Shown here in pieces: positions 5,101-16,667 of a stretch of DNA of 25,424 nucleotides. This stretch comes from Thermoplasmatales archaeon SW_10_69_26 (GTDB taxonomy: Archaea > Thermoplasmatota > SW-10-69-26). The DNA lies in contig PXUB01000005.1 in NCBI GenBank assembly GCA_003009755.1, positions 1-25,424 on the forward strand, in the 5' to 3' direction. Positions within the stretch are counted from its first letter, which is position 1; every line of letters starts with the position of its first letter. The notes beneath the pieces were generated by a model. That model had not been told where the DNA came from, made no database searches, and saw only the letters and a list, made by a program, of their open reading frames with translations. A program made the translations under genes and the position numbers.

Positions 5101-5262
5101 ACCGCAGAGCCGTGAGGCTCCGCGCCATCGGCTGACGGTCACGGCGTTCGTTCGCCGAACGACACGGTTGCGGTCGGTACGCCTATCACGGAGCCACAGA
5201 GGCGGGGAGACGGACTGGAGCAAGCGGACTGTGTCGTTGGCCTACGGTAGCGGCGTTCGTCT
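5101..5262. repeat. Degenerate copies of the array spacer
   Basis: The segment starting accgcagagc at 5101 and running through cgcgccatcggctgacgg (to about 5150) matches, with substitutions, the end of unit 2 and its following spacer at 5456-5505. The segment cctacggtagcggcgttcgt (5241-5260) matches the same spacer again. These look like older, eroded copies of the array, without the intact 53-bp palindromic element. Confidence 0.55.
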
Positions 5263-5351
5263 GGGGGCGACGCGTCTATCTCGGCCCCCCTTTTTGATGA
5301 AAATTTCCGCGGATACCGCGTGATGGGGATACCGTAGAGTCGGAACTTTTC
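5263..5351. repeat. Array unit 1: hairpin-T5 plus 53-bp inverted-repeat element
   Basis: GGGGGC (5263-5268) can pair with GCCCCC in GCCCCCC (5284-5290), followed by TTTTT (5291-5295), a terminator-like hairpin on the + strand. Next is a 53-bp element (5299-5351) bounded by GAAAATTTCCG and its reverse complement with one mismatch (CGGAACTTTTC). Inside is CGCGG-ATA-CCGCG, a mini-hairpin, and a second GATACC. Confidence 0.8.
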
Positions 5352-5385
5352 CGCGTCATCGGTCCTGCGGTAGCGGAGTTCGTCC

Positions 5386-5476
5386 GGGGGGCTACTGCAG
5401 ATACCGCTGCCCCCCTTTTTGACGAAAATTTCCGCGGATACCGCGTGACGCGGCTACCGCAGAGTCGGAAATTTTC
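5386..5476. repeat. Array unit 2: hairpin-T5 plus 53-bp inverted-repeat element
   Basis: GGGGGGC (5386-5392) pairs with GCCCCCC (5409-5415), followed by TTTTT (5416-5420). The 53-bp element is 5424-5476, bounded by perfect 11-bp inverted repeats GAAAATTTCCG and CGGAAATTTTC. It contains CGCGG-ATA-CCGCG and GCGG-CTA-CCGC mini-hairpins. It starts 125 bp after the element of unit 1. Confidence 0.85.
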
Positions 5477-5509
5477 TGCGCCATCGGCTCACGGTAGCGG
5501 AATTCGTCT

Positions 5510-5600
5510 GGGGGGCTACTGCAGATACCGCTGCCCCCCGTTTTGATGAAAATTTCCTGGTCTACGGCGTGACGCGGCTATCGTAGAGTCGGAAATTTTC
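5510..5600. repeat. Array unit 3: hairpin-T4 plus 53-bp inverted-repeat element
   Basis: GGGGGGC (5510-5516) pairs with GCCCCCC (5533-5539), followed by G and TTTT. The 53-bp element is 5548-5600; its left repeat is GAAAATTTCCT and its right repeat CGGAAATTTTC. The interior is more diverged (tggtctacggcgtgacg). It starts 124 bp after the previous element. Confidence 0.8.
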
Positions 5601-5690
5601 GGGGGCTACGACGGAGCTGAGGCCCCCCTTTTTGATGAAAATTTCCGGGGATACCGCGTGATGGAGATACCGTAGAGTCGGAAATTTTCA
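5601..5690. repeat. Array unit 4: hairpin-T5 plus 53-bp inverted-repeat element, ending in a stop codon
   Basis: GGGGGC (5601-5606) pairs with the C-run at 5623-5628, followed by TTTTT (5629-5633). The 53-bp element is 5637-5689 with perfect 11-bp inverted repeats. The spacer before it is only 36 bp, against 71-72 bp elsewhere. Its last two bases belong to the TGA stop (complement of 5688-5690) of the IscA-like gene, so the array abuts the gene exactly. Confidence 0.85.
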
Positions 5691-7901: not shown

Positions 7902-8036
7902 TCGCGAACTTGTGGCGCGTGTCGGGGTCGCCGTTCTCGTCCACCGTCATCGGCGGGACCGTCGTCACGGGATGCGACGGCTTGACCGTGGACTCGGTGC
8001 GTCCGGCTAGACTGATCCGGATTCACTTTGCGTGAG
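7902..8036. other. Intergenic, possible gene relic on the minus strand
   Basis: On the minus strand a frame of about 35 codons (roughly 8026 down to 7925) reads 'TVKPSHPVTTVPPMTVDENG' and then 'DPDTRHKFAI', with almost all third positions G or C. It is closed upstream by TGA, has no recognisable start, and runs on into non-coding sequence opposite the flavoenzyme gene. It may be the remains of a gene. Confidence 0.25.
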
Positions 8037-8280
8037 CGCTCGCGCCGGCGTGAGCGGTCGAGGTTGAGGACCGCGAGGAAGGAAACCTGGCAGGTTTTCG
8101 ACGGAGTGGGACGACGAGATCGGGCGCCTCACGCCGGGCGCCTCCACGCGAGGCCGCCTCAGCTGCCCGATGATGGGGGTTCCCCGTGTCCACCCTCGCA
8201 GGCTGCGTCGCGAATCCCTGGATGCGCCCTACGGGCACGCCTTCGGTCCCGCTCCTTACCTTTGGCCATCTTAGGCCGAG
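8037..8280 (+). ncRNA. Stem-loop-rich block, candidate structured RNA
   Basis: Successive perfect or near-perfect stems lie in about 240 nt without a convincing gene. CGCTCGCG/CGTGAGCG pairs at 8037-8056. GCGGTC (8054-8059) pairs with GACCGC (8069-8074). GGAAACCT (8081-8088) pairs with AGGTTTTC (8092-8099), loop GGC. ATCGGGC (8119-8125) pairs with GCCCGAT (8165-8171) and encloses GCCTC-cacgc-GAGGC (8140-8154). GGGG-gtt-CCCC lies at 8175-8185 and GCCC-tac-GGGC at 8226-8236. I find no RNase P, SRP or tRNA signature, and strand is a guess. It could also be a set of palindromic repeats, or chance folding of GC-rich DNA. Confidence 0.35.
8269..8274 (+). promoter_or_regulatory. TATA-like box before the ArlJ-like fragment
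   Basis: The sequence atctta is centred about 28 bp before the ATG at 8299 and resembles attctta ahead of the gene at 2674. If functional, the truncated ArlJ-like frame is still transcribed, or the promoter was captured. Confidence 0.3.
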
Positions 8281-8298
8281 CGAGAGCTTAACCCAAGC

Positions 8299-9078
8299 AT
8301 GTCCGGCAGTCTAGGTAGCCGGGCACGGCCAGCGGCGTCACGGTCAACGCCAGCTCGATCTCGCCGGGACGACAACTACCCGGGGTTCCTCCGCTCGCTG
8401 GGCTCCTCGACGGCGGCCCGCGGCGGCGACGAGCGCAAGGTGCTCAACCACCTGCGCCAGCACGACTTCGGGCCGTTGTCGACGAACATCCGCGACCTGT
8501 TCGCGCGCTTGCAGCTGCGCGTCGACGACGACCAGGCGTGGCGCTACTTCACGAGCGAGGCCGGCTCCCGCCTGATCGAGCGGTTCACGCAGATGTGCGA
8601 CGAGGCCGTCGAGGAGGGCGGCGAACCCGACGAGATCGGCCGCATCATCTCCGAGAACACGGTCGAGATCGTCGGTTTCCGCAAGCTGCGCTACCAGGCG
8701 GCCGGCACGTTCCGCGGGGTCGTGTTCGGCGTCGCCGTCGGCACCGCCTTCTCCTTGTTCGTCGGGCTCGGCGTCGTCCACATGCTCGTCAGCCTCTTCG
8801 GCAGCATCACCGACGAGCTCGGCGCCGGCGACACGCCCGTCAGCGTGCCGACGTTCCTGCACGTCTCCGGGCTCAACATCGGCTTGCTGCGCATGCTGGC
8901 GTTGACGATGCTGTTCATCAACGCGACCCTGTCCAGCATCCTCTTGCGCATCGTCGACGGCGGCACGCACGTCCGCCACCTGCAGGACTTCCCGATGCTG
9001 TTGTAGGCCTCGAACCTGACGGCGTTGGGCTCGTGGAAGCTGATCAACTCGTTCGGCGACGCCGGCGTCATCGAGTAG
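8299..9078 (+). pseudogene. C-terminal half of ArlJ/FlaJ-like membrane protein with in-frame amber codon
   Basis: The frame from ATG 8299 reaches TAG at 9004-9006 (235 residues) and continues in the same frame as plausible protein ('ASNLTALGSWKLI') to TAG at 9076-9078. The first 20 or so residues look random. From 'DDNYPGFLRSLGSS' onward the sequence follows ArlJ/FlaJ, the polytopic platform protein of archaella and type IV pili: 'HDFGPLSTNIRDLFARL', 'EIVGFRKLRYQAAGTFRGVVFG', two hydrophobic segments, and near the end 'LLRIVDGGTHVRHL'. A normal ArlJ has two T2SF-type halves and more than 500 residues; the N-terminal half is missing here. The amber codon falls where a Trp codon would fit (TGG to TAG). 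No other archaellum gene is nearby. I infer a decaying copy, although a TATA-like box lies 28 bp upstream. Confidence 0.7.
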
Positions 9079-16144: not shown

Positions 16145-16667
16145 GGCGCCCGGCTCGGAGCCCCGATCCCTACCAGCCCACCCCTGTCCTCTGCAGAGAT
16201 TTGGATCGGTGGAGCTGTATATGGGGTTCCACCGGGTTTGGGGAGTTCTGACTAGCGGAGGGTCCTCATGTTCGTCGCCGGTGCGGGCGGAGGCTTCATT
16301 GCGACGGGTGGGTGTTGGATCCTGAGCAGGGGATCGGCCGGGGTCTTCGCCCGGTGGATGGCGTGGCCGAATTCCCGGTCGACGAATTCCTCCACCCCGA
16401 TCTCGTCGAGAGGCCCCCACACGGTCAGGTACATCGAGTCCTCGGTCCGCGCGTTACCGAGGCGGGGCCGGGATCTCTCGGGGAGGCTTCGTTCTTGATC
16501 TTGGGGTTGATGAAGGCGGCCTCGCCGGCGGAACAGGAGACCGAGGTTGTTCCCGAAACTCCATGAAGATTGTCTATGGGGCAAGCCTCGAGGAGTATCC
16601 GCGATCCGGAAGTTCCTAATAGTCCAGACAACTTACCCTTCCCCCAATCACCATGGAGAGTTAGGAA
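16145..16667. other. Gene-poor stretch with possible relic
   Basis: No intact gene is supported in about 520 bp of comparatively lower GC content. On the minus strand one frame from ATG 16434 to 16252 reads 'MYLTVWGPLDEIGVEEF' and 'GHAIHRAKTPADPLLRI'. The preceding stretch in another frame reads 'AAFINPKIKNEASPRD', so a small decayed gene (about 16252-16550, one frame change) is possible; no family is recognised. At 16206-16231 GGTGGA and TCCACC flank gtatat, an operator-like arrangement around a TATA-like core. Confidence 0.3.

Follow-up and report, generated by a model that had tools for sequence, protein, structure and literature searches.

A dispersed palindromic repeat clustered beside an iscA-like gene, and its probable role as a transcription terminator, in a Thermoplasmatales archaeon

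To our knowledge, short interspersed repeats have been little studied in archaea. The SPRITE repeats of Streptococcus pneumoniae, known together with BOX and RUP, are present in about 30 copies per genome, and each consists of a terminator-like stem with a T-rich tract after it, located near gene 3' ends (PMC3049150). Target duplication is not established for SPRITE (PMC3049150), and the pneumococcal repeats were found with others inserting into one another (PMC10969869). Another kind is represented by the GTAG- and CGTC-tagged REP superfamilies, which are short extragenic palindromes of 20-40 bp (PMC3733652). As for the signals that such repeats may carry, termination of transcription in archaea depends on U-tracts of at least four residues, bound by aCPSF1, and a hairpin is not strictly needed (PMC8716108).

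Here, a repeat of this general kind was analysed in a stretch of 25,424 nucleotides (hereafter, the window), which corresponds to C5:1-25424 of a draft genome of 2.82 Mb in 49 contigs. At window positions 5225-5689 lies a 465-bp array of four plus-strand units, each composed of a G/C hairpin and a T-tract followed by a 53-bp palindrome. Its GC content is 57.6%, versus 69.6% for the window. The four palindromes described in an earlier note on this DNA were all located, with outer ends 53 bp apart (5299-5351, 5424-5476, 5548-5600, and 5637-5689). Of the 11-bp inverted repeats ascribed to them, only those of copies 2 and 4 are perfect; the right arm of copy 1 reads CGGAACTTTTC and the left arm of copy 3 reads GAAAATTTCCT. 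From base composition, about 1.6e-10 exact palindrome matches are expected per window, and four were found when one mismatch was allowed; these palindromes are not chance.

The repeating unit exceeds the palindrome. It is about 124 bp long in units 1-3, where a GGGGGG...CCCCCC hairpin and a T4-T5 tract precede the palindrome, and its final 89-91 bp, containing hairpin, T-tract, and palindrome, are taken as the core. Unit 1 (5225-5351) has its hairpin at 5263-5290, T5 at 5291-5295, and one mismatch in the right arm of the palindrome. The hairpin and T5 of unit 2 (5352-5476) are at 5386-5415 and 5416-5420, and unit 3 (5477-5600) has a hairpin at 5510-5539 and GTTTT at 5540-5544. Unit 4 (5601-5689) is a bare 89-bp core that directly abuts unit 3, with its hairpin at 5601-5628 and T5 at 5629-5633. 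On the minus strand, an iscA-like gene (Fe-S_biosyn, PF01521; 5688-6047) ends in a TGA stop at 5688-5690, which overlaps the arm of unit 4.

Upstream of the array, a leader-like stretch on the plus strand (5116-5242), overlapping the first bases of unit 1, is 78% identical to C43:27216-27354, so that the array has its leader in common with a two-unit array at C43:27.2-27.35 kb. The motif CACGGAGCCACAGAGGCGGGGAGACGG occurs in this leader at 5190-5216 and also at C43:27.3 kb. Within the array, unit 2 pairs with unit 3 and unit 1 with unit 4, which does not support a single recent tandem duplication as the source of all four units. From this pairing and the common leader, the array grew by more than one duplication, and it may have been moved or copied as a block.

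The unit is widely dispersed. The earlier note had proposed a search of the whole genome, and blastn with the core found 15 places, while a covariance model search recovered about 33 convincing copies on many contigs, including the 25 copies from which the model was built and which match by construction. The unit was matched in none of the 59 related genomes searched; a single one of these, 75% complete, belongs to the same family, so that "lineage-restricted" is the furthest claim the data allow. Exact-pattern searches of genome contigs and viral contigs gave no relatives, and the unit was found in none of the plasmids and phages searched. A looser viral scan gave four matches, two of them at 22.6 bits with the model; the one inspected was counted as chance because it is AT-rich and contains C5T6GATGAAAATTTCC without the palindrome.

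Copies of the unit fall into two sets. Nine loci stand alone, on C5, C15, C20, C22, C43 (three loci), C45, and C48, and the second set, more than one third of all copies, sits inside a companion element. In every copy with a whole hairpin the stem is formed; in one set it reads GGGGGGC/GCCCCCC, in the other GAGGGGG/CCCCCTC. Stem and T4-T5 are present in every complete stand-alone copy. The 53-54-bp inverted repeat of the unit ends in ..GGAAATTTTC. Position 4 of the palindrome arms changes on both sides, being A-T in one set and C-G in the other, and a pair is broken in several copies. The palindrome spans 51 to 54 bp across the family, which weakens the proposal, made from the constant 53 bp of the array, that its exact geometry is under selection. 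Two tandem arrays were also seen beside units. One with a 91-bp period (L025 2825-3200) resembles a degenerate unit array, and one with a 147-bp period (L031 4659-4995) has a CATCGGCCTGCGTTGCG stretch in common with the 5' part of the units.

The companion is an inverted-repeat, MITE-like element running from TAGACTGCCGG to CCGGCAGTCTA, in most cases flanked by TA on either side, and it has roughly 40 copies in the genome, both with and without the unit. A unit-free copy of about 300 bp (TA GACTGATCCGG...CCGGCAGTC TA) is present in the window at 8008-8313, outside the array; this element is the usual carrier of the unit family. By eye, three nested positions were distinguished. At the main one the unit interrupts a small palindrome of the carrier within its loop: the empty element reads GGCCTCGCGTGCAGGCGCC or GGCCTCGCGTGGAGGCGCC, and in filled copies its two halves flank the unit. 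The second position separates AACCC from GGGGTTT in a different small palindrome, and the third is within a CCGGTCTGAGGCGGG stretch. Comparison of the three sites by eye gave, as a possible target-site duplication, no more than a TG, present at two sites. The nested copies fall together on one side of a branch supported at 97/88, and a single insertion with later spread of the carrier fits the ten copies that occupy the main position. This carrier also helps account for the breaks in this assembly, where 22 of the 98 contig ends are within 600 bp of an end of the element. At C9:35.4 kb (L069 about 1880-2100), the TGA stop of a gene ending in ...REFWD runs directly into AACATTTCC, which resembles the arm of nested units, without a full unit after it.

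Since about 33 copies, nesting, and unit-free carriers were found, the unit is regarded as a dispersed, probably mobile, non-autonomous repeat, and the earlier suggestion of a MITE-like family gains support from the same observations. We infer that an enzyme moved it. No match to Y1/RAYT transposases (PF01797) was found in the genome, which is 95% complete, in a search where the controls were detected. An IS6-like transposase gene (C36:10944-11681; L072 1945-2685; NF033587, below cut-off) sits inside a unit. It was rejected as the autonomous parent, as copies at other places have different ends (CTGTCTAGTTAAGCG) and lack a unit. Further IS6-like copies, some of them broken, are on C38, C37, and C41, and the C36 copy is interpreted as an IS insertion accompanied by a local deletion.

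The nearest known counterparts of the unit are the pneumococcal SPRITE, BOX, and RUP repeats and the bacterial REPs. Compared with SPRITE, the unit also has a stem followed by a T-tract, a similar copy number, locations at gene 3' ends, and nesting of repeats, a likeness of kind only. It differs in having a second palindrome of 53-54 bp after the hairpin, a G/C-rich archaeal host, tandem arrays, and some copies that face gene starts. Like REPs, it is a short extragenic palindrome, both dispersed and clustered, but it is about 90-124 bp long and arranged in head-to-tail arrays, whereas REPs are 20-40 bp and form head-to-head dimers. It also has no constant tag tetranucleotide, and the genome has no RAYT gene, a criterion that applies to the GTAG type only. 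CGTC precedes the hairpin in some stand-alone copies only and in none of the nested copies shown. With MITEs the unit shares small size (about 90-124 bp), lack of coding capacity, dispersal, and inverted repeats, and it is nested in a clearer TIR element; however, its inverted repeat bounds only the 3' palindrome and leaves the 5' hairpin outside, so that there are no TIRs at both ends. On the features tested, the unit cannot be filed as a strict MITE or REP. It is a new lineage-restricted short interspersed repeat of a known kind, which would work like SPRITE if it is indeed a terminator. It adds such a family in an archaeal lineage.

The stand-alone copies lie close to genes. At three of the nine loci (C5, C45, and C48), admittedly few, the arm of the last unit abuts the stop codon exactly and provides the GA of TGA; on the gene strand this arm reads GAAAATTTCC, or GAAACCTTCC at C45. 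Compared with solved arginases, the arginase at C48 reaches its natural end intact, and IscA at C5 retains its C-terminal cysteine region; thus, neither protein shows a visible truncation. On C43, a unit starts about 20 nt past the stop codon of the DNA polymerase II large subunit (DP2) gene. At C20, a 40-aa frame, a putative gene, ends in TAA inside the arm, and if this frame is a gene, five of the nine loci adjoin a gene 3' end. The same end of the unit faces a gene start at the other four (C15, C22, and two on C43), as judged from start codons read from the sequence. The DP2 gene (L027 86-4969) contains an intein with a LAGLIDADG domain. The genome is assigned to the Archaea by its archaeal DP2 polymerase and by Orc1/Cdc6.

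The array is rich in potential termination signals. Half of the 24 runs of four or more A/T in the 25.4-kb window are inside it (binomial 3e-15 under uniform placement, a value that takes no account of the units being copies of one another), as are three of the five A5/T5 runs. Each unit has two U-tracts of four or more on the plus strand and one on the minus strand. Because the U4-tract is a known archaeal signal and the array holds these 12 runs, it is probably a bidirectional transcription terminator or 3'-end element beside iscA. A simple terminator scan did not list the hairpin-T5 sites, in all likelihood owing to its loop limit of 8.

Taken as a whole, the locus is best explained, with a probability of roughly 0.6, as a tandem cluster of a lineage-restricted short interspersed palindromic element that spread non-autonomously and acts as a probable bidirectional terminator beside iscA. 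The element would have spread into gene-flanking DNA and into the TA-flanked MITE-like element and multiplied locally by duplication at C5, and its U4-U5 tracts next to hairpins on both strands would then serve termination or 3'-end formation. The four stand-alone loci that face gene starts, the broken arm pairs of several copies, the negative RAYT search, and the distinct ends of the IS6-like copies count against this explanation. Whether selfish palindromes turn into transcription terminators in archaea is a question for which the family is a natural test case. A bolder version, which we regard as rather improbable, is that the element is mobile and targets the 3' ends of genes, at the stop codon or at a terminator palindrome, and that it carries a bidirectional terminator of its own, leaving genes with undamaged ends.

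The most serious competitor of the probable-terminator reading, though still an unlikely one, is a neutral selfish MITE/REP-like repeat with no host function, in which hairpin and T-tract serve the repeat's own movement and the positions beside genes merely reflect tolerated insertion sites. The lineage restriction, the nesting in a mobile-looking element, the tandem multiplication, and the units that adjoin gene starts as well as ends all agree with it. However, tolerance alone predicts neither the exact fit to three stop codons nor the U-tract content.

That the array gives rise to a structured small RNA or to a regulatory RNA element is considerably less probable. On both strands, a 151-nt segment of the array has a better fold than its shuffled versions (z -3.4 and -2.9), and pairing is kept in the hairpins, but there is no Rfam match, even at E 1, and the common fold over all copies by RNAalifold is weak (-5.2 kcal/mol), partly because of poorly aligned hairpin columns. 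For a role at the RNA level, the terminator form is favoured.

That the array is a replication-origin or partition element with units as initiator-binding sites, the iteron candidate of the earlier note, is hardly credible: the G-run near a GGAAA-bearing dyad is superficially similar to ORBs with G-strings (PMC3528665), and C43 carries an orc1/cdc6 gene plus three of the nine stand-alone loci, but the units are scattered over many contigs, many of them inside another repeat, and GC skew shows no clear switch at the array. The two orc1/cdc6 genes are elsewhere, at C43:16437-17543 and C19:100590-101675, and neither has a unit in its upstream region; about 1.3 kb downstream of the former there is a stand-alone unit. 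Upstream of this C43 gene, an AT-richer intergenic region (C43:15957-16383; L118) contains one ORB-like site near 16211 and is a candidate chromosomal origin.
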